From positions 1 to 64,000 of the forward strand of contig MFPR01000043.1 in NCBI GenBank assembly GCA_001784175.1: a DNA stretch of 64,000 nt. Reading direction: 5' to 3'. Below, one piece after another: positions 41,683 through 54,347 of the stretch (position 1 is its first letter; every line of letters begins with the position of its first letter). The notes under the pieces are model-generated. The model made no database searches, was not told the DNA's origin, and was given only the letters and a program-made list of their open reading frames with translations. The translations under genes were made by a program, and so were the position numbers. The stretch is from Candidatus Lindowbacteria bacterium RIFCSPLOWO2_12_FULL_62_27 (GTDB lineage Bacteria > Lindowbacteria > 2-12-FULL-62-27).

Positions 41683-42681
41683 CGGAAATACAATGACCGC
41701 AATTCCGTCATCACCACGGCCCGGCGGCTCTGCACCCTCTACGCCGCGTCCGGAGACGATAACGCCTGCGAACCGCTGATCCACGAAGTTCTCAAACCGG
41801 ACTACGACGGCTGGCCCAACGGAAAACTTCTTTTCCTGAAAGATTTTATGCCGCCGGCGGAATTTCGAAATATCCTCCTCGCGCGGCTCGCCCAGCCCTC
41901 CGACCGGAACGTCACGCTCTATTTTACGTTTCTGACGTTTCTCGGCACGGAATCCGATACCGTCATGCAGTCCTACGCGCGAAACGCCGTGATCTCCGAC
42001 CCGGCCGACGACGCCGCGCGAACCTACCTCATCGACTACAGCATCCACGCCGGCAAATTCGACGAGGCCGACTACGAATGCCGCCAGTGGATGGCCCGCA
42101 AACCCCTCGATTACCGGCCCCTGCTCTCCATCGCCATGGTCCGCCGCCTGCGCCGGAATTTCAAAGACGCGATCGGCATGGCCGAATCGGCGCTCAAGGC
42201 GCACGAATCCTGGCGCGCGTCCGCGGACTACGTCGAACGCGCCGGCTACGACGCCGACATCAAAAAAATCTGGCAGGAACTCGCCTTCTGCCACGAATCG
42301 GCCGGCGACCTCGACCGCGCCGTCCTCTATCACAAAAAAATATTCGATTTCTCGCTGGAGGAAAACAACCGGACCGTCGACCCGTCCGTCTATATTTCCC
42401 TCATGGAAATTTACATCCGCGCCAAACGCTATGCCGACGCCCGCGAATTCGACAGGCTCGCCGGCCGATACCGCGTCTTCGAAAATCTCCCCGGCACGAA
42501 CCTCCGCATCCTCGAGGAAAGCCTCGCCGAGGACCTCACGTCGGCCCTCAACAAGCTCATCTACGTCCGGATCCTGCGCATCAACCACCCGCCCGCCCGT
42601 GCCGCCGACCTCGCCAGAAAATTCGCCGCCGAAGACCCCGTCTTCGCCGCCGTCTGGTCCGACCCCGGGGAGAGGCCATGA
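41683..42681 (+). pseudogene. C-terminal TPR continuation of the kinase gene after the amber codon
   Basis: The frame continues without a break from RKYNDRNSVITTARRLC through TPR-like repeats to the TGA at 42679-42681. An ATG at 41848 could give a separate 277-residue product, but no ribosome site is seen there. With the TAG read as sense the protein would have 1116 residues. TAG is one base from codons for Tyr, Gln, Lys, Glu, Trp, Ser or Leu, so a point nonsense change or a sequencing error are the simplest explanations. Confidence 0.75.
42643..42675. repeat. 33-bp direct repeat, copy 1 (end of kinase gene)
   Basis: A 33-base segment covering the last codons of the kinase gene is repeated exactly at 43734-43766. 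The two copies bracket the first TA-like module and the first long repeat element. Confidence 0.85.
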
Positions 42682-42719: not shown

Positions 42720-43118
42720 TTATATTCGGCGGATTCGAATATGATCGTCAGGGGTCTCCCATGGAATGATTTCGCCGTCAGGCCCGATTTCAAACAGCCG
42801 ATGTTTCGCATCCTTGTAATCTTCGAAAAATGTCCGCATGGCTTTGATCCAAATCCGCGTACGTTCTGAAATCGGCATCCGCTGAGGCACGTGGGAGAGA
42901 AGGACGATGGACTCGCCCATTTTCGGGAAATCGAAAAAATCCTCGTCCTGCGTCAGGAAGATGCAGGGTGTCCCTTCCAGGCGTCGAACGACGTCCCGGT
43001 CGCTCGTTCCGCGCAGTTTCAGAGGAATCATATGATCAACCTCGTAACCGAGCTTCTTAAGTCGGGCGTACAATTCCAGAGGGAAATTTTCGTCCAGCAG
43101 GATGCGACGGGATGTCAG
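42720..43118 (-). CDS. DUF5615 (PIN-like) putative toxin 1
   Basis: About 132 residues if read from a CTG at 43118, where AAGGAG lies six bases upstream and the CTGA overlaps the stop of the DUF433 gene. The first ATG (43073) would cut off the conserved opening ILLDENFP. Acidic residues of the PIN-like site are visible in LLDEN and TQDEDFFDFP. Such proteins are paired with DUF433 antitoxins and are predicted ribonucleases. Confidence 0.75.
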   Translation of the reverse strand: MTSRRILLDENFPLELYARLKKLGYEVDHMIPLKLRGTSDRDVVRRLEGTPCIFLTQDEDFFDFPKMGESIVLLSHVPQRMPISERTRIWIKAMRTFFEDYKDAKHRLFEIGPDGEIIPWETPDDHIRIRRI

Positions 43119-43345
43119 GCGGCGCTCCTTCGCGCGGGCGGTACATACTCGCTGATGTGCGCCGCATATCTCAACGCGTCCTTGATCTGGCGCGCCGTGA
43201 CTCTATAGCTGCCGCAAATGGCCTTCTCCGAATCGCCGGCCGCCAGCCCGCCGATGATGGTGGCCACATCGATCCGTGTTCCCTTCAAACACGGCTTTCC
43301 AAACCGAATATCCGGATTCTGGTCAATCCCTGGGAATATCTCCAT
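43115..43345 (-). CDS. DUF433 putative antitoxin 1
   Basis: 76 residues with the DUF433 pattern: PGIDQNPDIRFGKPCLKGTRI, then a helix-turn-helix-like stretch (VTARQIKDALRYAA). It is the first gene of the operon and precedes the DUF5615 toxin, overlapping it by four bases. It is expected to repress the promoter directly upstream. Confidence 0.85.
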   Translation of the reverse strand: MEIFPGIDQNPDIRFGKPCLKGTRIDVATIIGGLAAGDSEKAICGSYRVTARQIKDALRYAAHISEYVPPARRSAA

Positions 43346-43351
43346 GATCTA

Positions 43352-43380
43352 ACTTTATCGTATGGGCTTTTCGTTTTCAA
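43352..43380 (-). promoter_or_regulatory. Leaderless promoter of DUF433/DUF5615 module 1
   Basis: TTGAAA (43380-43375), 17-base spacer, TAAAGT (43357-43352), then six bases to the ATG at 43345. Confidence 0.7.
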
Positions 43381-43445
43381 GGCATTCACCTCCCGTTCAC
43401 CTCATAGGAGCCTCATAGGAGGCGGCCCGAAGCCGCGCGGCAAGC

Positions 43446-43630
43446 GCGATTTGTGATTGGTGATTTCCGATTGATGATTTGTGATTGCGAAAATCACAAA
43501 TTGGAAATCACCAATCACAAATCACAAATAATCTTTTCCCTTGCCCCTGCCGTCCCCGCCGCCCGCCCGCCGTTCCGGGGAAGCGGGTCATGATGGACGC
43601 ATCCCGCATCTTGCAACCGGGCTGCCGCCG
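43446..43630. repeat. Interspersed repeat copy A (long form, with nested AT-rich hairpin)
   Basis: The left half holds a 20-bp perfect inverted repeat (43449-43468 with 43503-43522) enclosing a second hairpin of ATTTGTGATT/AATCACAAAT. The right half (about 43555-43630) is the GC-rich unit shared by all six copies, with the core GGGTCATGATGGACGCATCC. It lies upstream of TA module 1. The same composite recurs at 52.2 kb. The 615 bases between 43345 and 43961 hold only this element, the duplicated gene tail and a hairpin. Confidence 0.85.
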
Positions 43631-43720
43631 TCTCCATAAGTTTCCGAACCGGAACCTGCTCATCATGAATAAATTGCGTCACAACTTAACAACTAACGGT
43701 CTGGGCCGTGTTTCTTGTTT

Positions 43721-43770
43721 CTTGTTTCTAAAATTCGCCGCCGTCTGGTCCGACCCCGGGGAGAGGGAGT
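43721..43770 (+). pseudogene. Duplicated tail of the kinase gene
   Basis: KFAAVWSDPGERE is readable here. It matches the kinase C-terminus with one internal loss of EDPVFAA, a 21-base deletion between two TTCGCCGCC repeats. Bases 43734-43766 are identical to 42643-42675. Confidence 0.7.
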
Positions 43771-43788
43771 AAGCAGGTACCCCTTTCC

Positions 43789-43815
43789 CCCTCTCCCGCC
43801 AAAGGCGGGAGAGGG
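43789..43815. terminator. 12-bp perfect hairpin
   Basis: CCCTCTCCCGCC pairs with GGCGGGAGAGGG across an AAA loop. It lies between the duplicated kinase tail and the next gene; the sequence type is a common intergenic hairpin. Termination is inferred. Confidence 0.45.
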
Positions 43816-43960
43816 ACAGGGTGAGGGTGGCCAAAAACTCTCTTCTCGCCCGTTCGCTTTCTATCCCGAATCCCGCTTATTAGAGTAGAGGGGCAATTTG
43901 GCGAGAGCGAATCAGAAGTAGTTCTCGATCTTTTACAAGTAAACAAAGGGGGGTCAGGAC

Positions 43961-44566
43961 ATGAAAAAATATTTGGCTCTGGGTTTGGCCATGGGTGTGT
44001 GTCTGAGTCTGTCGCCGGCCGCGTCGGCCGGATACGGGTCGATCAGCGGAATGGTTGGAATGAAAAGCGGCGCGGAAGCGGCGAAAGGCGGTTTTTATTC
44101 GGAAGCGGACTTCTGGTACAACCTGAACAGCGTGGTCGCGTTTGGGACGGGCGTCGGCTTCAGCTCCTATGACGGGCTCGACGACGTCGGCAAATTCATG
44201 ATGATCCCGGCCCTCCTCAACATGCGGATCTCGACGCCGACCGACCGGGTGAAATTCTACGGTGAAGGCGGCGTCGGGTATTACTTCTTCGATTTCAAGA
44301 TGGATCCTTCCATCACATCCGAGTTGGCCGCATACGGCATTGACGGCGAAGTCGACTTTGAGAGCACGACCGGCACGCATTTCGGCGGCGGCATGTTGGT
44401 GGCGCTTGGCCGGAGCACAGTCCTGGGCCTGAGCGTCCGCCGGGTCTCCGTCCAACCGCAGGCAACCGTGACCCTCCGGGATTCCTTCGGCCAGTCGTTG
44501 ACGCTCAGCGGCACGTCGGACCAGAGTTCGACGGTCTACGGCCTGAATCTATCGGTCAAGTTCTGA
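43961..44566 (+). CDS. Outer-membrane beta-barrel-like protein
   Basis: 201 residues with a signal peptide (YLALGLAMGVCLSLSPAASA). The mature part has alternating hydrophobic strands (FYGEGGVGYYFFDFKM, HFGGGMLVALGRSTVLGLSVR) and ends in LNLSVKF with a terminal phenylalanine, the mark of outer-membrane barrels recognised by BamA. A GGGGGG-type ribosome site lies ahead of the ATG. Length fits an eight-stranded barrel. A second, truncated copy of its tail lies at 46.9 kb. Confidence 0.8.
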   Translation: MKKYLALGLAMGVCLSLSPAASAGYGSISGMVGMKSGAEAAKGGFYSEADFWYNLNSVVAFGTGVGFSSYDGLDDVGKFMMIPALLNMRISTPTDRVKFYGEGGVGYYFFDFKMDPSITSELAAYGIDGEVDFESTTGTHFGGGMLVALGRSTVLGLSVRRVSVQPQATVTLRDSFGQSLTLSGTSDQSSTVYGLNLSVKF

Positions 44567-44745
44567 CCGCGCGTTGACAGCCGAGAAAGCCGCAAGATAC
44601 GGTCATGCGATATTCACTTGTATTTATTGATGCCATGATCCCTGCATCCTTTTTGGCGCCGTTGCAAACCCGCGAGAGGGGGAGCCGGCCCTTGAAGGAT
44701 GGGGGTGTATCCGGTCGGCGCGGGAAATCCTGGTACGCCGGCCGC

Positions 44746-44820
44746 CCCCGCCGCCCGCCCGCCGATCCGGGGAACCGGGTCATGACGGCGGCATCCGGCA
44801 TCCGGCAATCTGGCAGCCTC
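44746..44820. repeat. Interspersed repeat copy B
   Basis: GC-rich unit with the core GGAACCGGGTCATGACGGCG followed by GCATCCGGCATCCGGCAATC. It lies 40 bases from the end of the second DUF5615 gene. No gene is convincing in the 180 bases to its left. Confidence 0.85.
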
Positions 44821-44859
44821 GGAACCCGTTTTCACAAGGATGACACCATTCGCGCCCCG

Positions 44860-45198
44860 TTAAAGAAACAGGACTTTGTTTTCGAGATCGGGGAAATCGT
44901 TCTCTCTGGCGACAGCCGCGACTTTTTTGATGAGGACCCCAACGCCGAATTTTCTTGGATGCGCGTAAATAATCCCGGGGTGCGAGGCCCCTTGTTGCCT
45001 GCGTTCATCCGCGATCTTCAAAAAATCCGCGTCGTGCGTCAAAAGGACGGACCCGGTCGCGGCGGCATACGACAGGTGCTGTTCATCCTCCGCGGCAAGC
45101 AGCCCCGCATCTTGGGCTGTCGAAATTGGGATGTCGAGACGCTTCAGTCCTTCTGCAATGTTCGAGGGAATGTTTTCGTCCAGATGGAGGGTGAGCAC
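44860..45198 (-). CDS. DUF5615 (PIN-like) putative toxin 2
   Basis: 112 residues: LHLDENIPSNIAEGLKRL at the N-terminus and LLTHDADFLKIADERRQQG in the middle carry the acidic residues of the PIN-like site. It follows its DUF433 partner after nine bases. It is clearly diverged from copies 1 and 3, so these are separate acquisitions, not fresh duplicates. Confidence 0.85.
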   Translation of the reverse strand: MLTLHLDENIPSNIAEGLKRLDIPISTAQDAGLLAAEDEQHLSYAAATGSVLLTHDADFLKIADERRQQGASHPGIIYAHPRKFGVGVLIKKVAAVARENDFPDLENKVLFL

Positions 45199-45207
45199 AA
45201 CAAACCG

Positions 45208-45501
45208 TCAGAGGCTGTAAGACACGCCGAACTTCCTGGCAAGCCGCTTGACCGTCTTCTCGTCCTCCCGGATCTCGCAGTCGAGGGCGGCCTTGTGCCG
45301 GAAGTAGTAAGCCAGGGCTTCGTGAACCTGAAAAAGCCGGAGATGGGGATGCGCGTTCACAATTTCCTCAGCCGTCATGCCCAGCCGCTCATGTTCGACG
45401 GCAATCTGCGACACGCGAATTCGACTGCCGGCAACCACCGCTTTTTTCCCGCCCCCAGGCCTGCCGAGAAACGAAATACCCGGATACGTCATTGTCACCA
45501 T
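45208..45501 (-). CDS. DUF433 putative antitoxin 2
   Basis: 97 residues with the DUF433 core VVAGSRIRVSQIAVEHERLG, MTAEEIVNAHPHL and a helical end (HEALAYYFRHKAALD). It is the first gene of the pair with DUF5615 toxin 2 and starts at an ATG six bases after the -10 box. Confidence 0.85.
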   Translation of the reverse strand: MVTMTYPGISFLGRPGGGKKAVVAGSRIRVSQIAVEHERLGMTAEEIVNAHPHLRLFQVHEALAYYFRHKAALDCEIREDEKTVKRLARKFGVSYSL

Positions 45502-45507
45502 AGTTCA

Positions 45508-45536
45508 ACTCTCCTAAATCTCCGAAACAGAGTCAA
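45508..45536 (-). promoter_or_regulatory. Leaderless promoter of DUF433/DUF5615 module 2
   Basis: TTGACT (45536-45531), 17-base spacer, GAGAGT (45513-45508), then six bases to the ATG. The -10 region GATTTAGGAGAGTTG is nearly the same as at the HepT/MntA promoter. Confidence 0.65.
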
Positions 45537-45670
45537 GCAAAACCATCGGCAACGCATCTTCGCCGGCAAGTCAAGTAGTGGATGGCCGGACCGGCCGTCT
45601 CTCGCCGGCCTTCTGCTTCGCCCCTTTGCACTTGGCACTTTCCACTTTTCACTTTCCCCTGCCAAATCTG

Positions 45671-45740
45671 CCCGCCCGCCGATCCGGGGAACCGCGGCAT
45701 GATGGCGGCATCCGGCATCCGGCAACCGGGCTGCCGCCGG
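45671..45740. repeat. Interspersed repeat copy C
   Basis: GC-rich unit with the core GGAACCGCGGCATGATGGCG. It lies upstream of the module-2 promoter and 18 bases from the end of hepT, so it separates two minus-strand TA operons. Confidence 0.85.
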
Positions 45741-45757
45741 CCCCGGGCTCCTAAACT

Positions 45758-46093
45758 TTACGTGTCGCTGGGTGTTGAAGCAGGCGGGAGAGGTTCTGAC
45801 AAGAGATTTTCAAGCGCCGTGATCAAGGGCGGCATATCCTGGGTTATGGTGCTCCACAGGATGTCGAGGTTGATGTCAAAGTATGCGTGGATCAGGCGGT
45901 TTCGCATGCCGACGATGTCCAGCCACGGGACATGCGGCTGTCTATTCCGTGTCTCGTCTGACACCTTGGTCGCGGCTTCGCCGACGATTTCAATGCATTT
46001 CACCAGAGAAAGCGCCAGCATTCGGCTGGAATCCAAGTCCGGGCGGGACCTGCCGCTGACAAATTCACGGGCTTCCTTTGCCGCGTCGAGCAT
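45758..46093 (-). CDS. hepT: HepT-like HEPN-domain toxin
   Basis: 111 residues from the ATG at 46093. The HEPN ribonuclease motif R-x4-H appears as MRNRLIHAYF followed by DILW, typical of HepT (DUF86). Homologues begin about six residues earlier (LVLLRHMLDAA is readable), so translation may start at a CTG upstream. It is encoded just after the MNT gene; in this family the MNT partner adenylylates a HEPN tyrosine (the Tyr of HAYF) to silence it. Confidence 0.85.
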   Translation of the reverse strand: MLDAAKEAREFVSGRSRPDLDSSRMLALSLVKCIEIVGEAATKVSDETRNRQPHVPWLDIVGMRNRLIHAYFDINLDILWSTITQDMPPLITALENLLSEPLPPASTPSDT

Positions 46094-46112
46094 ATGCCGC
46101 AGGAGAACCAGA

Positions 46113-46421
46113 TCAGGGTTCGGCGTACTGCACCTCGGCGCCGGCCATGACGTCGTCTCTAAAATACCGGCTCAGATCCGCAGGCGTCCGCAGATCCACT
46201 TTCCGGCCCGCAAAATGCTCCGACAGCTCCCGTTCCATCCGCGCCACCCCCAGAAAACCGGGTGTCCGGCCGGCCTCAAACTCGACCAGCACGTCCACAT
46301 CGCTGTCGGGACCGAACCGGTCCGTGAGCACCGATCCGAACAGCGAAAGCTTCCGAACGTGATTCCGCCGGCAAAATGTTCGAATCCCTTCTCTCGAAAA
46401 ATCGAGACGGTCCGCTTTCAT
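46113..46421 (-). CDS. mntA: MntA-like minimal nucleotidyltransferase antitoxin
   Basis: 102 residues. The nucleotidyltransferase motif [20 protein letters not shown] has the Gly-Ser and the two catalytic Asp residues. It partners the HepT toxin that follows. It starts at an ATG six bases after the -10 box. Confidence 0.88.
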
Positions 46422-46427
46422 GGTGAA

Positions 46428-46456
46428 ACTGTCCTAAATCCGAATCGGCAAGTCAA
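46428..46456 (-). promoter_or_regulatory. Leaderless promoter of the MntA/HepT operon
   Basis: TTGACT (46456-46451), 17-base spacer, GACAGT (46433-46428), six bases to the ATG. Confidence 0.65.
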
Positions 46457-46509
46457 GCGCACTGCCGCCGCATCCGGCTTCGCCTCCAATGCCGCCCGCC
46501 GACTCGCCG

Positions 46510-46590
46510 CCCCCGCCGCCCGCCCGCCGATCCGGGGAACCGCGTCATGAGGACGGCATCACGCGTCTTGCAATCGGGTAGCCTCCGGCC
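46510..46590. repeat. Interspersed repeat copy D
   Basis: GC-rich unit (core GGGGAACCGCGTCATGAGGA, ending in GGGTAGCCTCCGGCCC). It is about 55 bases upstream of the MntA/HepT -35 box. On its other side a kinase-gene remnant begins immediately. Confidence 0.85.
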
Positions 46591-46597
46591 CAGCACT

Positions 46598-46735
46598 CCC
46601 ATTCGCACCCTTCTGGACAAAATGCTCTATATCCGCGTCCTTCGAATCAACCGCAAAACCGGCTTGGCGGAGAAGCTCCATAAATCTTTCGCCGCGTCAG
46701 ATAAGAATTTCCTTCTGATCATGCAGGGTTCTTAA
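46598..46735 (+). pseudogene. Remnant similar to the C-terminus of the 39.3-kb kinase
   Basis: LDKMLYIRVLRINRKTGLAE and KLHKSFAASDKN align with the kinase C-terminus LNKLIYVRILRINHPPARAA and DLARKFAAEDPV. Only this tail is present, directly joined to repeat copy D. It is a paralogue remnant, not a recent copy. Confidence 0.65.
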
Positions 46736-46775
46736 CTCGAGTTACGCAAACGGCAAAAATGAGGATAAAATTGGC

Positions 46776-46856
46776 CACAAGAGGCACAAGAAGCACAAAA
46801 AATTTCTACTTTTATGGTTCTCTTGTGCCTCTTGAGTCAGTTTTGTGCCTCTTGTG
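46776..46856. repeat. Inverted repeat of CACAAGAGGCACAA
   Basis: 14-bp perfect arms at 46776-46789 and 46843-46856, with a third partial copy at 46823-46834. AT-rich, in a gene-free stretch. The roughly 620 bases between 46421 and 47044 hold only a promoter, a repeat, this element and two gene remnants. Confidence 0.6.
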
Positions 46857-46882
46857 TAAAAAATGCGTTACTCGTGTTCTTA

Positions 46883-46966
46883 AATCACTTCACCCTTGCG
46901 GCCTTCACCGGCGTCAGTGACCGGAGATCGACGGTCTACGGATTGAATCTGTCGGTGAAGTTCTAA
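46883..46966 (+). pseudogene. Remnant of the beta-barrel gene tail
   Basis: TLAAFTGVSDRRSTVYGLNL then SVKF and TAA matches the end of the 43961 barrel protein (SGTSDQSSTVYGLNLSVKF) at protein and DNA level, with scattered differences. Nothing of the N-terminal part remains. Confidence 0.7.
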
Positions 46967-47043
46967 AATGTTCGCTTTTCCCTCAAAATCCCGCTGTATT
47001 CAATGGACAGGTTCTTTAACAACTGAAAACAGGAGGGATTGAA

Positions 47044-47586
47044 ATGATGAGAAACCGGTATCTTGGTCTGGGGTTGCTGATATCCATGTTCGTTTTATCA
47101 AGCGCGTTCGAAACACACGCGTCGCAATGGGACACGCCGAAATACAACTCATGGTGGGGAGGGATTGGTTCCGGCGGCGCCTGGACGTTGGGCGTGCGGG
47201 GAAAAAACCTTGGTATTGCCATGGGGGGTACAGGCGAAGCGCAAATGTCGGAGGACCAGATTCTGGACTGGGCGGTGCCGCATGATGACTACACGAGTCT
47301 GGGAAGAAAAAGCACCAGTTCAGCATGGGGCATTGATCTCCTGGGCTTTGTCAATCCGTTGAAATGGTGCTCGATTCAGATGGGTCTTGGCGTCTACAGC
47401 CAGGACTTTCGAGACGTCGCCCAGTCAAACGTCACCGGCTGGACATACACGCAGGGCAAAAGCAGTGAAACACAGATGGCCTATTCCGCGGGACTCCAAT
47501 TTTTGCCCTTCAATAAATTGACATTCGGCGTTGATTACCATTCAGTCCGCGGGGTTACGGGTGTCATCGGATTGAAATTCGATTGA
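47044..47586 (+). CDS. Small exported protein, possible outer-membrane barrel
   Basis: 180 residues with a signal peptide (YLGLGLLISMFVLSSAFETHA) and GGAGGGA upstream of the ATG. The mature region is Gly- and aromatic-rich with alternating strands (SSAWGIDLLGFVNPLKWCSI, AYSAGLQFLPFNKLTFGVDY), ending GVIGLKFD. I do not recognise the family. It is followed at 33 bases by another exported protein. Confidence 0.65.
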   Translation: MMRNRYLGLGLLISMFVLSSAFETHASQWDTPKYNSWWGGIGSGGAWTLGVRGKNLGIAMGGTGEAQMSEDQILDWAVPHDDYTSLGRKSTSSAWGIDLLGFVNPLKWCSIQMGLGVYSQDFRDVAQSNVTGWTYTQGKSSETQMAYSAGLQFLPFNKLTFGVDYHSVRGVTGVIGLKFD

Positions 47587-47618
47587 CCGGCCGCCCGTGA
47601 AAAAAAGGAGAAGATGAC

Positions 47619-48209
47619 ATGAAAAAATTCCTTGGAATCCTCGCCGTGGCTCTTTTGTTCGCGTCGGTTGTATCCGCGAATGCGGAGGACGAGAAATACG
47701 TCACGACGCTGACCGCCAGAAGTTTTTCGTCGGTCGTCGTTCTTCAGTTTCGTCAGATGAGCCCGGACTGGATAGACCAGCATTTTACGACTGAAGATCA
47801 GAGGAAGACCGTCCGCAATGTGATCAAAGGCAAAGAAGGTCGCGGTCTGTTTGTCGTGGCTGGCGGCGACGGTTATTTCTTTCCCTCCAACATCCAATTT
47901 GTCCAGGGATATTCGGCGTATTCCGTCAACAATCGCGATATCCTGCCGATATCCGACAATTTCTCCGGCAAAATGGTCGAGGGAACCATGGCCATGGGGA
48001 TCATTTTTATTCCCGATCGGATCGATCTGTCGGAGAAGGTCGAAGTGCTCTACGACGATTCGAGAGAAGTGTTGAATGTTGCCGAGGTCGGGACGCCTGC
48101 GGTGCAATCTAAGCCGGACCGCTTGAACGATCTGAAAAAACGCAAGGATGAACTGGAACGCGAATACGCGTCGATCCTTGCTCAAATCGCCGAACTCGAA
48201 GGCAAATAG
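47619..48209 (+). CDS. Exported protein with C-terminal coiled coil
   Basis: 196 residues: signal peptide (FLGILAVALLFASVVSANA), a compact domain of about 130 residues, and a C-terminal coiled coil (LNDLKKRKDELEREYASILA). A GGAG ribosome site is present. No family recognised. It shares an operon-like arrangement with the genes on both sides. Confidence 0.65.
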   Translation: MKKFLGILAVALLFASVVSANAEDEKYVTTLTARSFSSVVVLQFRQMSPDWIDQHFTTEDQRKTVRNVIKGKEGRGLFVVAGGDGYFFPSNIQFVQGYSAYSVNNRDILPISDNFSGKMVEGTMAMGIIFIPDRIDLSEKVEVLYDDSREVLNVAEVGTPAVQSKPDRLNDLKKRKDELEREYASILAQIAELEGK

Positions 48210-48223
48210 AGGGGCGATTGCCC

Positions 48224-49582
48224 GTGAAGCGGCGGAGATTGTTTACGCTTATTGCGGTGTTGCTTTCCCTCTGCCCGGCCGCAGTTGCGGACATCTCCAC
48301 GGAGGATGTACAGGTTCTTGATCGCCAGGCCCGCGAAGGCGATTCCCAGGCTCAGTACTATCTGGGCGTTGTCTTCTACGAGGGAATCCATCGGGAAAAA
48401 AACTGGGTTTCCGCCTCGGAGTGGGTTTATGCTTCCGCCATGCAGGGGCACCCTGACGCGGCCTATCAGGTTGGCCGGATGACGTATCTTGGCGAAGCAT
48501 TCAATCAGGATACGGCGCTGGGACTGGAGTGGATGACGTATGCGGCCCGGCTTGGACATCCGAAGGCCGCCGAGTTTCTCCGGCAATTGGCCTTGCGCTC
48601 CGATCGAGAATACTCTACAGGCAGTGAAGCCGGGATCCCCCCGGCCGAACCCGACCCCGAGGTGGACGACGAATCCGGCGACAATCCGGCGGTCGAGCAG
48701 GCCGAGGCACTGCCGACTCCACGGCAGATGTCTGCCGCCCGCATTGAGCTGAATTACCGGAGCCGAAAATACTTGGACGAGTCCACGGAATACCCGGCGG
48801 CGACCAAGCTGAAAATATGGCGGGATTTTGTGGCGGAATTCGGCCGAAGTAAATATGCCGGGTTTGCCCAAGGACGGATCGACTCGTGGGAAACCATATC
48901 GGCGGAAGAAGATGCACAGATGCGGTCGCAGGGATTCGGCACAATTGAAAGTCTTCAAAAGGCGAATGGACTCGATCCGGATGGCCGGATGGGACCGCGG
49001 ACGCGGGCGTTGCTGAAGTCGAAAATCCGAAGCCGGGACTCAGAACCGGGCGCCGAATCCGGCCGCAAGCCCAATGAACCGCTCGCCGCCGCGGATGTTT
49101 CGGCAAGACACGACTTGAAGAAAGTCGCCGCGGCCGTACTGGACCAGGACCCGCGAAACAAGGGCATCTCAGTCCGGCTCCTTCGAAAATCCCAGGGACA
49201 AAAATCCGTCCTGGTTTTTGATCTCCTGGCGGTTTCCGGAGACAACAGCGCTATGGATGTCTTTCGAGTGTTCAATCAGGCCGCCGAAAAAATCCAAAAC
49301 GAACATTTTGATGAAATCCGTCTCGCGTACAAAGGCGATGTCCGGTTCACGATCGATGGAGATTATTTTCAAACCCTGGGGGCGGAATATTCCTCGCAGA
49401 ACCCGGTTTATACGCTGAGGACGTTTCCGGAAAATCTTTATCGCCCGGACGGATCAAAGGCATTTGGAACGTGGTCCGGAGGCATATTGGGCGTCGTCAA
49501 AGAACAGATGGACGATTTCCATCGATTCCACAGGGAATGGTACATGAACGACCTCATCGCCGCCGCGGGAGCATCCAGGTAA
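48224..49582 (+). CDS. Sel1-repeat protein with peptidoglycan-binding-like motif
   Basis: About 452 residues from GTG at 48224, chosen for the GAGGGG seven bases upstream (a TTG lies six bases earlier). Signal peptide (LFTLIAVLLSLCPAAVA), then two or three Sel1-type repeats (GDSQAQYYLGVVFYEG, GHPDAAYQVGRMTYLGEA, TYAARLGHPKAAEF). A central motif, SLQKANGLDPDGRMGPRTRA near residue 245, matches PG_binding_1. The C-terminal 170 residues are of unknown family. Likely periplasmic or outer-membrane associated. Confidence 0.75.
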   Translation: MKRRRLFTLIAVLLSLCPAAVADISTEDVQVLDRQAREGDSQAQYYLGVVFYEGIHREKNWVSASEWVYASAMQGHPDAAYQVGRMTYLGEAFNQDTALGLEWMTYAARLGHPKAAEFLRQLALRSDREYSTGSEAGIPPAEPDPEVDDESGDNPAVEQAEALPTPRQMSAARIELNYRSRKYLDESTEYPAATKLKIWRDFVAEFGRSKYAGFAQGRIDSWETISAEEDAQMRSQGFGTIESLQKANGLDPDGRMGPRTRALLKSKIRSRDSEPGAESGRKPNEPLAAADVSARHDLKKVAAAVLDQDPRNKGISVRLLRKSQGQKSVLVFDLLAVSGDNSAMDVFRVFNQAAEKIQNEHFDEIRLAYKGDVRFTIDGDYFQTLGAEYSSQNPVYTLRTFPENLYRPDGSKAFGTWSGGILGVVKEQMDDFHRFHREWYMNDLIAAAGASR

Positions 49583-49722
49583 CCGACCTCCTCGGACAGA
49601 CGTGACGGCAGATGTGTCAGTCCAGCCGCGAAAAACGTCACCGCAAATGTTCGGTTTTACTTCCGCCAGCCGCTGTCAATGGTAGAGATAGTTCTTTCAC
49701 AAGTGCAAAGGGGGTAGTGATT

Positions 49723-49914
49723 GTGCGTATCCTGAATGTTGCGTGGTCATCTCTGTCCGCCTGTCTGTGTCTGCCCGGGGCTGTTTTTCTATCCCTGCTG
49801 CCGTTCCCAACTGAATCGTTCGCCGGCGCGCCCGGCATCGACGCGTTCACCCGGCACGGCGCGGGCGTCCGGGCGGTGGGGATGACCTCGGACAAACTCA
49901 TCGCCTTGGATTGA
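49723..49914 (+). pseudogene. Truncated secreted-protein gene (signal peptide only)
   Basis: A 63-residue frame from GTG with AAAGGGGG upstream: a signal peptide (VRILNVAWSSLSACLCLPGA...LPFPTESFAGA) and 20 residues more before a stop at the edge of the next TA block. The upstream region resembles that of the 43961 barrel gene. Probably a host gene whose body was lost when the TA block arrived. Confidence 0.5.
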
Positions 49915-50141
49915 ATATGAGGATCCAATGAACTGGCCGTCGACCGCCTGTAGGAATAGTCTTGGCTCAAACTTTAAGTTACCCTCAGTGGTTCTATCTA
50001 TCTCTGAATCGACAAAGAGGTGGCTCATGTATCGGACTACCTCGACAGTCGGGAAGTATGGGATTCATCCTATCGGCTTCGGGCCGCACGCATCCGATTC
50101 AAGCCGGACGCGGGGGTCTGTGTGTGCGGTTTCCCTTCCCT
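49915..50141. other. Gene-free stretch
   Basis: No convincing gene on either strand. Overlapping frames show weak RGGS and GF-type patterns that could be a decayed formylglycine-enzyme-like tail, but the signal is too poor to call. Confidence 0.4.
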
Positions 50142-50312
50142 TCACGCTGGTTGTGAGGTTTCGTCCGGTGGGGTCTTGTCTGGCTGGGTTAGCCCGAGAG
50201 CCAGTCTCACGGCATGGTCGACTTTTGTCAGAAGGCTCGCGGGGGTGTGTCCGATGATGCGTTCTAATGGAAATGGAACGAGAACGATGTCGCCCCGGTT
50301 ATATCTCCCCAT
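50142..50312 (-). pseudogene. MazF/PemK-like toxin with internal deletion
   Basis: A 56-residue frame from the ATG at 50312. It starts like MazF/PemK (GRYNRGDIVLVPFP) and then runs into the family's last helix (ASLLTKVDHAVRLALGL), with about 60-70 central residues missing. The join is in frame. It overlaps the 3' end of its antitoxin gene by 14 bases, as in intact mazEF-like operons. Key RNase residues of the middle region are absent, so it is probably inactive, or a dominant-negative micro-protein. Confidence 0.65.
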
Positions 50313-50511
50313 ACCGGTCCTCGGCCGGGTCGTCCCAGATGGGCCGAAGCGCCGTCTCCTGCGCCTTCAAGGTCTGGTCCGCAACGGACCCGCCAATCAT
50401 CAGGATGATCCGGGCTTGAGCGCCATCGGGAATCCGGTCGCTGATCTCCTTCGGAATCTGCAACGGCTTGCCCGGCTCAACCCTGGCATCAAACTCGTAC
50501 GCGAACGTCAT
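50299..50511 (-). CDS. Putative antitoxin of the MazF-like protein
   Basis: 70 residues from the ATG at 50511: FEFDARV-type strand opening (MTFAYEFDARVEPGKPLQIP), an IPDGAQARIILMIGG core, and an acidic tail (IWDDPAEDRYGEI). The layout fits small antitoxins with a beta-rich N-terminal part and a toxin-binding acidic tail. The overlap with the MazF-like frame supports the pairing. Confidence 0.65.
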   Translation of the reverse strand: MTFAYEFDARVEPGKPLQIPKEISDRIPDGAQARIILMIGGSVADQTLKAQETALRPIWDDPAEDRYGEI

Positions 50512-50517
50512 GCCCGA

Positions 50518-50546
50518 AGTGTGCCAATCCTTTCGGCGGTCGTCAA
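50518..50546 (-). promoter_or_regulatory. Leaderless promoter of the antitoxin/mini-MazF operon
   Basis: TTGACG (50546-50541), 17-base spacer, CACACT (50523-50518), six bases to the ATG. The -10 box is weak. Confidence 0.5.
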
Positions 50547-50578
50547 CTGAAGTGGACCCCATGACCGGCATGTGGGAA

Positions 50579-50935
50579 CTAACTTTTCGTCAATTTCGGA
50601 TCTGGGCCTTCATGAATCGTGAGCTTGCCGACATAGGATTCCGGACTTGCTGTCTGGAAGAGCTGTTCAACGGCCGCGATTTCTTCGTCGGCTTTCGTGG
50701 TGCCCAGCCGAAGGAGGATGATGCCCAGATGCGGTGTCGGGCGGAGATTTTTCTGAACGGCGAAATCCTTGTCGTTGGTGATCAGAAGATCGTATCGGCC
50801 CTGAATGGCATGAACCAGCTCCCCGTTTTCGACGCCCAAGAGCGCGGCATCCTTGGCGTGGTCGGTTTCGTGGCCACGGGATTTAAGACGTTGTCCGAGG
50901 GAATATGGAACATTTTCATCAAGCAGGATTCGCAT
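50579..50935 (-). CDS. DUF5615 (PIN-like) putative toxin 3
   Basis: 118 residues: MRILLDENVPYSLGQRLKS, HAKDAALLG and LLITNDKDFAVQ carry the PIN-like acidic residues. It overlaps its DUF433 partner by 17 bases. Predicted ribonuclease toxin. Confidence 0.87.
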   Translation of the reverse strand: MRILLDENVPYSLGQRLKSRGHETDHAKDAALLGVENGELVHAIQGRYDLLITNDKDFAVQKNLRPTPHLGIILLRLGTTKADEEIAAVEQLFQTASPESYVGKLTIHEGPDPKLTKS

Positions 50936-51170
50936 GAGTAAACGCCGACGCCAGACAGGAGCTGAAATGGATCACGGCCCGGATGTCCTCCCGTGTCAGG
51001 GTGGGGTAGTTTTCGAGAATTTCCTCGAAATTGCTCCCGCCCTCAAGATTGTCCAGAACGACGTACAGCGGGATTCGCGTCCCTTTGACGCACGGAGTCC
51101 CGCCCATGATGCGGGGGTCGACGCTGATCCGAGGATGATCTTTCAGCAACTCTCTGTAATTCGGCTCCAC
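50919..51170 (-). CDS. DUF433 putative antitoxin 3
   Basis: 83 residues from a GTG start. The core HPRISVDPRIMGGTPCVKGT then RIPLYVVLDNLEGG, followed by NYPTLTREDIRAVIHFSS, is the classic DUF433 signature. First gene of the pair with DUF5615 toxin 3. Confidence 0.9.
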   Translation of the reverse strand: MEPNYRELLKDHPRISVDPRIMGGTPCVKGTRIPLYVVLDNLEGGSNFEEILENYPTLTREDIRAVIHFSSCLASAFTHANPA

Positions 51171-51177
51171 GAAAATG

Positions 51178-51206
51178 ATTATAACCGATCAACCCGAGAA
51201 GGGCAA
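51178..51206 (-). promoter_or_regulatory. Leaderless promoter of DUF433/DUF5615 module 3
   Basis: TTGCCC (51206-51201), 17-base spacer and a consensus TATAAT (51183-51178), seven bases before the GTG at 51170. Confidence 0.7.
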
Positions 51207-51351
51207 ACGATGGTAAATGCCGGACTGATCGCCGGCAACCGTCTCCGGCGGCCGGACATGAGACGCCGGAAGTCTTGCAATCTTGCAATATCCGGGCGCG
51301 CTTTCCAATGCCCCGGACGCCGGAATATGTACGCCCGTGCCGCAACAACCC

Positions 51352-51741
51352 TTATGGAAAGATTCGCAGGACCTTTCTGGGAAATTCGAGATGAAGATTA
51401 AAACGGGACAGGAAATCCATGCCCAGAAGTCCGTCGGCAGGCATGTTCGGAGGAATGGAATGAACGCATACCTTGAAATTCCTGACCGATTGACCCAGCG
51501 CTTCGAATCTCGGGACCCTCATGCGCGGCGCGTACTCAAGCGTGCTGGCGGTCGTGAGAGCGCACCGTTCGCGCGATGCGGCCGGATCACAGCCAATCTC
51601 AAGCAATTGAACTGGCGCCACGATTGTGTAAACCGATCCTGTGTCCAGAATCAGCCGCAAGAGGCTGGCGCCCTTGGGTCCGTGTATCGCCGCGTCAACA
51701 ATGATCAGCCGGGCGGTTGGATCGATCGGAAACTCAAACAC
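51352..51741 (-). CDS. Retropepsin-like (clan AA) aspartic protease
   Basis: 129 residues with one active-site motif LILDTGSVYTIV and the later hydrophobic motif GLLGMDFLSRF, the two marks of retroviral-type aspartic proteases, which work as dimers. No signal peptide, so it acts in the cytoplasm. It is the second gene of a pair (gap three bases) with the 51745 gene and sits among TA operons. Role unknown. Confidence 0.85.
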   Translation of the reverse strand: MFEFPIDPTARLIIVDAAIHGPKGASLLRLILDTGSVYTIVAPVQLLEIGCDPAASRERCALTTASTLEYAPRMRVPRFEALGQSVRNFKVCVHSIPPNMPADGLLGMDFLSRFNLHLEFPRKVLRIFP

Positions 51742-51744
51742 GAG

Positions 51745-52017
51745 TCAGGCCCAGGCCGGCCAGACGGAAATGCAAACTGCCGTATCCTCCGGAATTGTTT
51801 CGTCCGAACAGACCGTCATCAGCATCCGGCCCCGGTCTCTGACCTTCATGGCCACCCGATGAATTTCCATTCGGTCGGGACTGTGAGCCAGGAGCCGCCC
51901 GGTCTTGGCCGTGGTCGTGGCCGGGTCGTATTCCGCCACCTCAATGAGGAGCCACGTCTTTCTTTTCTTAAACCGCCTCCGAATCGTTTCGATGCCCTCA
52001 ATACGCCCCCGTTTCAT
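51745..52017 (-). CDS. Small partner of the retropepsin-like protease
   Basis: 90 residues starting at an ATG six bases after a -10 box. It has a basic N-terminus (MKRGRIEGIETIRRRFKKRK) and a beta-rich remainder with TWLLIEVAEYDPATTTAKTG and a RLLAHSPDRMEIH segment. I recall no functional annotation for it. It resembles the small partners often found beside such proteases. The tight linkage and the shared promoter style suggest a two-component unit. Confidence 0.7.
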   Translation of the reverse strand: MKRGRIEGIETIRRRFKKRKTWLLIEVAEYDPATTTAKTGRLLAHSPDRMEIHRVAMKVRDRGRMLMTVCSDETIPEDTAVCISVWPAWA

Positions 52018-52023
52018 GTCAAA

Positions 52024-52052
52024 GTTTTCCTACATACCTTCAGGCAAGTCAA
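52024..52052 (-). promoter_or_regulatory. Leaderless promoter of the retropepsin pair
   Basis: TTGACT (52052-52047), 17-base spacer, GAAAAC (52029-52024), six bases to the ATG. The -35 neighbourhood GCTTGACTTGCC matches the MntA/HepT promoter. Confidence 0.6.
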
Positions 52053-52059
52053 GCGCGCA

Positions 52060-52130
52060 GCCGCCCGACCGCCGATCCGGGGCACAGGGTCATGATGCCC
52101 GCATCCCGCATCTTGCAATCGGGCGCACCC
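52060..52130. repeat. Interspersed repeat copy E
   Basis: GC-rich unit (core GGCACAGGGTCATGATGCCC, then CGCATCTTGCAATCGGGC). It lies about 10 bases upstream of the retropepsin-pair promoter. The 316 bases between 52017 and 52334 hold only this promoter and copies E and F. Confidence 0.8.
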
Positions 52131-52187
52131 TTGGCACGATGCAGCCGGAGGAACACATTCAATGCAGGCAATGCACAGACGAGGAAG

Positions 52188-52378
52188 GCGCGATTTGTGA
52201 TTGGTGATTTCCGTTTGGTGATTTGTGATCGCGAAAATCACAAATTGGAAATCCCAAATCACAAATCACAAATAATCTTTTCCCTTGCCCCTGCCGTCCC
52301 CGCCGCCCGCCCGCCGATCCGGGGAACCGGGTCATGATGGACGCATCCGGAATCCGGAAAGCTGGCAGCCTCCGGCCC
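52188..52378. repeat. Interspersed repeat copy F (long form)
   Basis: Same composite as copy A: an AT-rich nested hairpin (about 52190-52272) joined by the same TCTTTTCCCTTGCCCCTGCC sequence to the GC-rich unit. Its right end supplies the start codon of the next plus-strand frame. Confidence 0.85.
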
Positions 52379-52690
52379 TATTTTCTCCTTCTTGTCATTT
52401 CTGTTTTCGGGTTCGTGCTGCCGGCCTGCGGGAAAATGATGTCGGACAGCATCGTTGTTTTCCAAGTGCAGGTTTCGGGCGGCTTGGCGAGCGATGAATT
52501 CATCTCCCTGTATAATCCTCGTCCCGAAACCGTTTCTCTCACTCCCTATCGGATTTCCATCACTACAGGGGTGAGCAATACGCTGTCCACCTACGATGCC
52601 GGACTCGGTGGGAGCATGGGGCCGTTTGGGTTTTATCGAATCACACTTTCGACCGCCGACACCGCCTTAAGAGATGCCGGATTCGACGGG
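52334..52690 (+). pseudogene. N-terminal part of a frameshifted lipoprotein with lamin-tail-like domain
   Basis: The frame begins inside repeat copy F (MMDASGIRKAGSLRP is repeat-derived) and runs into a lipoprotein-type signal with LPAC lipobox (FLLLVISVFGFVLPAC). A lamin-tail-like domain follows (SDEFISLYNPRPETVSLTPY). From about 52680 the natural sequence continues in the next frame (52674-54347), so a frameshift or out-of-frame deletion separates the two parts. Confidence 0.65.
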
Positions 52691-54347
52691 GTTGGCGATA
52701 CCGTCGGCTCGGGTGAGTTTTGCGATTGCGCATCCGTCGAGCACGGCGGGATATTTCCGGGACGTATCGGGCCTCACGGCCGATTCGGCATGGACCGACA
52801 CGGATGGGTACGCGCAGGACACGTTTACGCTCGGGTCGGCCCGCGGCGTGTATCTGGTGACGGCGACCAGCGACTCGAACCCGATCCAAAAGACGATGTT
52901 CTATGCCTATGCGGACGGGTTCGATCTTGCGGCAAAGACGTGGAAACTCGTCGCGCCGAACAAGGAAGCGTCAGCGGTATCGTTGATGGCCCCGGTTTTG
53001 CATCCCATCAGCACGCTTCTGTCCCGATCGACCGTCTACGAGTGGAACGAGAACGCGGGAGTCAATGCCGGGCTGTATGATTATTCCAAAGCGACGGGCA
53101 TCGCGCGTGGGCGGGGATACTGGATCTACGACGACACCGGCGTTGGTGTCGTCTTTTCGGGAAGCTCCGGATTCGACACCGTCACCGTTTCGCTTACGGC
53201 CGGCTGGCACATCATTGGCACCGGAGAATATTTTTACATCGACTGGGATTCCGATGTCCGGTTCGATACCGGCAGTACGAAACTGACGCCCGCGCAGGCG
53301 GCCGCGGCCGGGGTCATTAACAATTCCGTCTACTGGTACCATGGCAGCGGCTACTACCGCGGGCCGGATCCGCTGACGCCGGCGCTCTCGCGCGTTCAGC
53401 TCAAACCGTCCGTCGGATTTTTCATGTATACCGCGCTGGCCTGCAACATGAGCCTATATCCGAATCCTCGGTCGCCGGCGGAGACGGCGACGCAGATTCT
53501 GAATCAGGCGCCGGCGCTGGTGACGAGAAACGCGAAAGATGGAACCCCCCACCCAGCCTCCCCCACAAGGGGGGAGGAGTTGTACGGCGCGGGCGCCTCG
53601 AAGTACACGCAATCGCAACCGGCCGAAACCAACTGGGACGTACGGTTCATCCTGTCCGGCGGCGGGCTAATGGAGTTTCAGAATTACATCGGAGTGAAAC
53701 CGTCGGCGACGGACGTGCTGATGTATGACCGCCGCGCGCCACCGCTGGCGGCCGGGCGATACCTTGCGATGAGTTTTGCCGGCGAAGATGGCGTGCGAAA
53801 GGCCGCGAGTTACGTGGAGCCGATCCGGACGGCGGCCAAATGGGATTTTCAAATTCAGAGCGACCTGACCGGCCAGGCGGTGACGCTGGCGTGGGACAAT
53901 CTGCAGAGCATTCCGGAGAAATTTGCCGCGTACCTCATCACACCCGCCGGGCCGCCGGTCGACATGCGCAAGAGCGCGTCGTTCAGTTTCGCCACGAACG
54001 CGGACGGCCCGACGGCCGCGTCATTCAGCGCGATCGCGGGACAGCCGGACTATGTCGCGGCGTTTCTGGCGCCGCCGCTGGACCGGGGGTTCACATTCGC
54101 GTATCCGAACCCGGGACCCGACGGCAACAGCTTCGTCTATTTCAAACACAACGTTACGGCCGGCGACGTTCGAATCAAAATTTTCGACGTTGGCGGCCGG
54201 CTCGTGCGGGAACTGACCGGAAGCGTCTCGCCGATCCCGTGGGACACGACCAACCGATTCGGCCAGAAACTCGGGTCGGGCGTGTACCTCTACATCGTCG
54301 AGGGCAGCGGCGCGAGGCTCGTGGACAGGGTGGCGATCGTACGATGA
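52674..54347 (+). CDS. Secreted protein with Ig-like and FlgD-type C-terminal domain (C-terminal part of a split gene)
   Basis: About 557 residues. It opens with a Big_1-like Ig domain (GLAIPSARVSFAIAHP, TDTDGYAQDTFTLGSARGVY), then a domain with ARGRGYWIYDD and SAGWHIIG-like motifs often seen in such proteins. It ends in a FlgD-Ig/type IX-sorting-like tail (VRIKIFDVGGRLVRELTG, LGSGVYLYIVEG). The ATG at 52674 is unlikely to be a real start; the protein probably continued from the 52334 frame. Its TGA overlaps the ATG at 54344 (ATGA). Confidence 0.75.
   Translation: MPDSTGLAIPSARVSFAIAHPSSTAGYFRDVSGLTADSAWTDTDGYAQDTFTLGSARGVYLVTATSDSNPIQKTMFYAYADGFDLAAKTWKLVAPNKEASAVSLMAPVLHPISTLLSRSTVYEWNENAGVNAGLYDYSKATGIARGRGYWIYDDTGVGVVFSGSSGFDTVTVSLTAGWHIIGTGEYFYIDWDSDVRFDTGSTKLTPAQAAAAGVINNSVYWYHGSGYYRGPDPLTPALSRVQLKPSVGFFMYTALACNMSLYPNPRSPAETATQILNQAPALVTRNAKDGTPHPASPTRGEELYGAGASKYTQSQPAETNWDVRFILSGGGLMEFQNYIGVKPSATDVLMYDRRAPPLAAGRYLAMSFAGEDGVRKAASYVEPIRTAAKWDFQIQSDLTGQAVTLAWDNLQSIPEKFAAYLITPAGPPVDMRKSASFSFATNADGPTAASFSAIAGQPDYVAAFLAPPLDRGFTFAYPNPGPDGNSFVYFKHNVTAGDVRIKIFDVGGRLVRELTGSVSPIPWDTTNRFGQKLGSGVYLYIVEGSGARLVDRVAIVR
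53557..53577. repeat. Intergenic-type hairpin inserted in a coding frame
   Basis: CCTCCCCC and GGGGGAGG arms around a short loop. The translated segment TPHPASPTRGEELYG is a typical product of such intergenic repeats, so an element seems to have entered this gene in frame. Confidence 0.6.

Follow-up and report, generated by a model that had tools for sequence, protein, structure and literature searches.

Duplicated gene ends around toxin–antitoxin-type operons in a Lindowbacteria genome suggest transposase-free insertion

How small toxin–antitoxin (TA)-type operons come to be stacked between copies of one repeat is the question raised by a 64,000-nucleotide stretch of Candidatus Lindowbacteria bacterium RIFCSPLOWO2_12_FULL_62_27 (GenBank assembly GCA_001784175.1, contig MFPR01000043.1, positions 1 to 64,000 of the forward strand; hereafter the window). 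The original prediction, made from the letters of this DNA, held that repeat, promoter and operon may move as a unit, or that the repeat may be the target or mark of a mobilisation process. We propose, with a probability of about 0.6, that TA-type operons enter beside gene ends through transposase-free insertion with a long and variable target duplication, are stacked at one locus, and are kept there by addiction.

Parts of resident gene ends are duplicated around the operons of the island. On each side of operon 1 (Table 1) stands an identical 33-nt piece from the 3' end of the gene at 41848-42681, and the ending GERE* at the displaced right copy looks like the older gene end, judging from the sequence. 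Operons 2 and 3 are together bracketed by copies (about 53 nt, 85%) of the 3' end of the gene at 43961-44566, and the island repeat is present in both inserts, that of operon 1 and that of operons 2 and 3. Beyond these window examples of 33 nt and about 53 nt, the bracketing direct repeats at other sites measure 35-230 nt. Local alignment gave no support to a description of the 33-nt duplication as one of ~59 nt with an internal deletion. A separate inverted-repeat element (cacaagaggcacaagaagcac) occupies positions 46736-46880 of the window, flanked by two gene-end fragments.

The anatomy of operon 1 recurs at the sat gene of Nitrospirota, where the comparison of filled and empty sites that the original prediction had proposed was found for a DUF433/DUF5615 pair. 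In the filled genome, G098 (locus L168), a 702-bp cassette consisting of DUF433/DUF5615 only is inserted at the 3' end of sat, where 35 nt are duplicated (97%); Sat ends in KGSSS*, the displaced copy keeps KGGG*, and the Mrp P-loop lies 999 nt past the Sat stop. In the empty genome, G099, whose Sat is 92% identical, mrp follows directly on sat, the Mrp P-loop lies at 263 nt, and there is no duplication. A further genome, G103, has the insertion start in common with G098, and its contig ends within the insert. Moreover, KSB1 bacterium BS750m-G25 (L149, L154) carries an array of the form R-TA1-S-R-TA2-S between a Crp-like gene and valS, in which R (120 nt, 87.5%) is the Crp-like gene's 3' end, S is a 116-nt stretch (90.5%), TA1 is a DUF433/DUF5615 pair, and TA2 is, by eye, a RelE-like pair.

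Other TA-type islands, in the same genome and in a relative, carry repeats of their own. A DUF433 search of the Lindowbacteria genome gave 10 loci. In L059 (C4:213.5-233 kb), the 3' end of a resident gene, together with its terminator, is present in about 13 copies, some full and some partial, which all run in one direction, with genes for HicA, DUF433/DUF5615, PIN, DUF2442 and zeta-toxin between them. Repeats of 250-420 nt surround a retropepsin gene in L060, and a 100-200-nt repeat occurs four times around UPF0175 and ORF6N genes in L092, a locus from an unselected sample. Repeats within giant repetitive genes were set aside. In L085 a PIN pair lies between 46-nt fragments resembling a tRNA 3' end, although the stretch contains no complete tRNA. 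Within the Lindowbacteria genome the repeat sequence thus differs from island to island, and several repeats are copies of the 3' end of an adjacent gene. Relatives of window operons 1 and 2 in G001 (73-74% DNA identity) adjoin other repeats, so the island repeat is not carried along with the operon from one genome to another. Since the other islands and G001 carry different repeats, the repeat looks like duplicated local DNA, the mark of an insertion. Only part of the prediction is supported: repeat–operon blocks are inserted inside duplicated resident gene ends, and the repeat is local, TA-associated and mosaic among its copies, whereas its role as a dedicated mobilisation sequence is not supported. 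A 110-198-nt repeat that resembles a gene end with its terminator occurs at two distant sites, L116 and L265, where it brackets a ParE-type locus and an open reading frame (ORF) of DUF4258 type.

The island repeat is 75-96 nt long and occurs in six copies, all on the plus strand, between 43.5 and 52.4 kb of the window; identity to copy 2 is 66-86% over 96 nt, and the copies share 82-91% over the core. In the host genome, a 4.39-Mb metagenome assembly that is 94% complete, a degenerate pattern allowing up to 3 mismatches matched six times (6 forward, 0 reverse), each time at an island copy, with 0 matches for the control, and BLAST yielded no additional convincing copy. These searches bear out the predicted set of six same-strand copies, which are restricted to the island; the even genome-wide spread that would have refuted the prediction is absent. 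The layout was also described correctly: copies 1, 3, 4 and 5, though not 2 and 6, lie upstream of operons 1, 2, 3 and 5, all the small operons are on the minus strand, and no transposase or integrase is seen in the island. On the minus strand the order is copy 4, MntA/HepT, copy 3, DUF433/DUF5615, copy 2. The score of a candidate seventh copy (51255-51302) was reached by 3 of 1000 shuffles with about five gaps tried, and it is hence marginal.

Comparison of the copies with each other indicates that they are mosaic, from recombination or conversion among them, because 19 of the 36 informative site pairs show all four combinations and so fail the four-gamete test. The last block matches between copies 1 and 3, the one before it between copies 2 and 3, and the 5' part between copies 1 and 6. 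The similarity of copies 1 and 6 extends over 161 nt (43444-43604 and 52188-52348, plus strand; 95.7% identical), a block made up of an AT-rich hairpin and the first part of the island repeat. AT-rich inverted repeats of degenerate 8-9-base units (gatttgtgattggtgattt) are located at 43448-43529 and 52192-52273 of the window and also at L275:17165-17243; comparable degenerate units of different sequence (cacttttcactt, gacagaagacag) were observed near TA-type genes. The plus-strand gene starting at 52334, whose start codon is covered by copy 6, changes reading frame at ~52700 and goes on as 52674-54347 (Por secretion tail), through a frameshift or a sequencing error.

According to Pfam, the five operons of the island contain TA-type or TA-like families: DUF433/DUF5615 three times, MntA/HepT, and a retropepsin with a partner lacking a match. 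They are putative TA systems, assigned from these family matches. Where they can be aligned, the three DUF433/DUF5615 pairs of the window share only about 30-40% identity and so are not recent duplicates, and yet they have the repeat in common.

Table 1. Position of the features discussed, in window coordinates unless a locus is given.
Feature	Position	Strand	Remarks
Operon 1	43345-42720	-	DUF433 (43345-43115) then DUF5615 PIN-like; Pfam
Operon 2	45501-44860	-	DUF433 then DUF5615; Pfam
Operon 3	46421-45758	-	MntA then HepT (type VII TA family); NCBIfam matches under curated cut-off
Operon 4	51170-50579	-	DUF433 then DUF5615; Pfam
Operon 5	52017-51352	-	90-aa ORF without family match, then retropepsin-like aspartyl protease
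Small pair	50571-50142	-	No family match; MazF/antitoxin-like by eye only
Repeat copy 1	43546-43641	+	Upstream of operon 1
Repeat copy 2	44738-44833	+	Starts 26 nt beyond operon 2 stop
Repeat copy 3	~45661-45750	+	Between operons 2 and 3; upstream of operon 2, 8 nt from operon 3 stop
Repeat copy 4	46503-46598	+	Upstream of operon 3
Repeat copy 5	~52048-52143	+	Upstream of operon 5
Repeat copy 6	52290-52385	+	Covers start codon of plus-strand gene at 52334
Candidate seventh copy	51255-51302	+	Degenerate; past operon 5 stop; marginal
Left 33-nt copy, 3' end of gene 41848-42681	42643-42675	+	Joined to gene, end now GERP*
Displaced right 33-nt copy	43734-43766	+	GAGTAA next, end GERE*
Left gene-end copy, 3' end of gene 43961-44566	44514-44564	+	About 53 nt, 85%
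Right copy of gene 43961-44566 end	46912-46964	+	Beyond operons 2 and 3
Fragment resembling C-terminus of gene 41848-42681	46600-46735	+	Directly after copy 4; from translations
Shared promoter, operon 3	46422-46457	-	0 substitutions
Shared promoter, operon 5	52018-52053	-	5 substitutions
Shared promoter, operon 2	45502-45537	-	6 substitutions
Shared promoter, L060	L060:11067-11102		71-aa ORF with PIN-like partner; 1 substitution
Further shared-promoter sites	L065:8089, 8943, 14431; L073:12985		

Unrelated TA-type operons in two genomes are preceded by a nearly identical promoter, CTTGACTTGCC-N5-GGATTTAGGACAGT-N6-ATG, which in G001 stands before one DUF433 pair and three pairs of a small ORF and a PIN-like gene. 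It was found neither in 800 kb of the sampled genome, with up to six substitutions allowed, nor in viral contigs. The promoter appears to be of the leaderless type, its spacing being such that transcription would start near the ATG. Common start regions in unrelated operons may reflect common regulation, or an exchange of operons behind one promoter.

The association between flanking repeats and TA genes is real but moderate. In the Lindowbacteria genome, flanking direct repeats were detected at 9 of 32 DUF433, PIN and ParE loci versus 27 of 420 sample windows, most of these 27 lying in giant repetitive genes and one being a TA island, with windows and loci not fully independent. Across many phyla, 7 of 59 DUF433 loci were flanked as compared with 6 of 203 windows placed off-centre at those loci (Fisher p=0.012), and one of the six flanked control windows itself brackets a PIN gene. 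A single DUF433 protein served as the query across phyla because an alignment query was insufficiently conserved. In an 800-kb sample of the Lindowbacteria genome, about half of the intergenic repeat-bracketed intervals contain TA-like genes or a DUF1016 nuclease gene inside an hsd operon, and the others include an NrdJ-like gene, an unknown 185-aa ORF and noncoding DNA. A DUF1016 nuclease gene sits between hsdM and hsdS at L096:13058-16960, bracketed by 40-nt direct repeats at the hsdM end, and a gene of 1086 aa, ribonucleotide-reductase-like as named by eye, lies inside 70-nt direct repeats at L269:1205-4670.

Several known types of element were compared with the island repeat. Small same-direction operons, same-direction repeats between them, richness in TA genes and an array-specific repeat would all suit an integron that has lost its integrase (a cluster of attC sites lacking an integrase, CALIN), the repeats being its attC sites. 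This explanation is scarcely tenable, given that no copy contains the RYYYAAC/GTTRRRY box pair on either strand, and that the fold z is about 0 or positive for most copies, none clearly beating shuffles on either strand, whereas a true attC array in G061 (L151), used as a positive control, passes the box test with sites folding at z -3.4 to -4.4. Moreover, three of the 14 tyrosine-recombinase ORFs of the genome were scanned and reached 104-188 bits versus the TIGR02249 (IntI) cut-off of 265, the rest being judged by eye. One cassette of the control array (G061:C4; GCCCAAC...GTTGGGC, about 135-150 nt) is a DUF433/DUF5615 pair. A miniature inverted-repeat transposable element or a repetitive extragenic palindrome was rejected, the copies being restricted to the island and devoid of a hairpin; the repeat has no Rfam match, and its variation is without third-position bias (by eye), contrary to a protein-coding origin. 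An exact degenerate pattern found no island repeat in GTDB contigs or viral contigs, near records of the Lindowbacteria genome being perhaps excluded from these. The repeats of L125 and L152 form a CRISPR-type array and were not taken as support; that of L152 (G061:C22) is long and close to a DUF433 gene.

Three further explanations were weighed. Local tandem duplication of one repeat–operon block, whose operons later diverged or were replaced, agrees with the confinement of the copies to 9 kb and one strand; it is nevertheless very improbable, as the operon families are unrelated and divergence among the DUF433/DUF5615 pairs far exceeds that among the repeats. Remnants of site-specific integration are another candidate. 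Tyrosine-recombinase elements that inserted at gene 3' ends, and were either mobilised in trans or reduced by decay to their TA genes, would leave attachment (att) sites as repeats; the replaced C-termini at L168 and at window operon 1 resemble att restoration, the L085 repeats resemble a tRNA 3' end, and the genome has the 14 recombinase ORFs mentioned above. However, no cassette has an integrase gene, only the ORFs of small operons lying between the repeats; the repeats vary by site in sequence and length (33-230 nt); and the 702-bp Nitrospirota insert is a TA pair alone although its duplication is still 97% identical. We therefore consider this origin quite unlikely. Survivorship, by which direct repeats collapse through recombination unless addictive or essential DNA lies between them and no special insertion process operates, is in line with the TA or nuclease genes in about half of the bracketed intervals of the 800-kb sample, and TA genes are thought to counter cassette-array loss in super-integrons (PMC2654758). 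It leaves unexplained why the repeats are adjacent gene 3' ends with replaced last codons and why insertion and duplication appear together in the Nitrospirota case, and intervals without TA genes persist too; as the sole cause it is unlikely.

Insertion beside gene ends, the reading that we favour, could proceed as follows. Without a transposase of its own, an insertion would duplicate the sequence it enters over a length of tens to about 200 bases. Template switching in replication or repair may be responsible, the TA block being copied before a return upstream of the departure point, because variable length, gene-end targets and the lack of a recombinase fit such a process. End joining is less likely because Ku was not found in G000-G003 and G098. 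More insertions at the same spot would add operons together with copies of that spot, and thereby produce an island-specific repeat, and operon–repeat blocks may then relocate locally to other gene ends. The arrays would persist by addiction, as published work on restriction–modification (RM) and TA genes leads us to infer, because recombination between the repeats would delete the antitoxin and harm the cell. The preference for gene ends may itself reflect selection, since a long duplication restores the gene. A wider scheme, in which a shared promoter and its operon are copied as a transposase-free cassette into gene ends through template switching that leaves a long target duplication, addiction makes replacement lethal and addition viable, and each site builds up an array with a repeat of its own, an integron-like stockpile lacking a recombinase in several phyla, is put forward tentatively, as possible rather than probable.

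Some observations weigh against insertion beside gene ends. Flanking repeats were not detectable at 23 of the 32 loci in the Lindowbacteria genome and 52 of the 59 across phyla, and with about half of the sampled brackets lacking TA genes the insertion process would not be TA-specific. In the window, repeat copy 6 covers a gene start and not a 3' end, and copies of the island repeat in three separate places mean that a second, local relocation must be assumed. The window locus is without any strain-level empty site, its flanking gene having no match in two other genomes of the family, and the relatives compared for the KSB1 array were too distant to supply an empty site there. Furthermore, the genomes are metagenome assemblies, and because G003 is only 59% complete, the lack of Ku there is weak evidence.

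Comparable arrangements have been described in other systems. For RM genes, insertion accompanied by long target duplications of variable length, of the order of 100 bp, has been reported, as has resistance to allelic replacement (PMC3874152 and PMC3031569, which cite Nobusato 2000 and Furuta 2010 for the insertions). They resemble the present case in being addiction-type genes with a long variable target duplication and no dedicated transposase, whose direct repeats permit further recombination; here, in contrast, the inserts are TA-type operons with no RM gene, are repeated at one locus with an island-specific repeat, and often stand at gene 3' ends. In Microcystis aeruginosa PCC 7806, next to MaOC1, a ParE/ParD-like module lies between identical 152-bp direct repeats (PMC7935541). 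There, too, direct repeats flank a TA pair, the first beginning 14 bp past the stop of the neighbouring gene; unlike here, it is a single module with one repeat pair containing internal inverted repeats, and the description of the module mentions neither an array nor a model of insertion. Chromosomal integron arrays also hold TA cassettes separated by same-direction, array-specific repeats, whereas attC boxes, an attC fold and an identified integron integrase are lacking here, as judged from the three scanned and the remaining recombinases inspected by eye. Integrative elements at tRNA or gene 3' ends also have direct repeats that are the gene 3' end with its last codons replaced; here the cassettes are without integrase, and repeat length and sequence differ between sites. 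To the known RM and Microcystis cases, the present analysis adds arrays whose repeats are particular to their island, the targeting of gene 3' ends, and, for a TA-type cassette, one pair of filled and empty sites.

In summary, these findings suggest that TA-type genes are added successively through insertions that involve no transposase and duplicate the site they enter, which may explain their pile-up into islands. The duplicated gene end is a simple mark locating each insertion, so that comparisons of empty and filled sites can measure the process. The finding bears on the movement of transposase-less TA operons from genome to genome and on their accumulation into islands, and it offers a reason for the existence of integron-like TA islands without an integrase.

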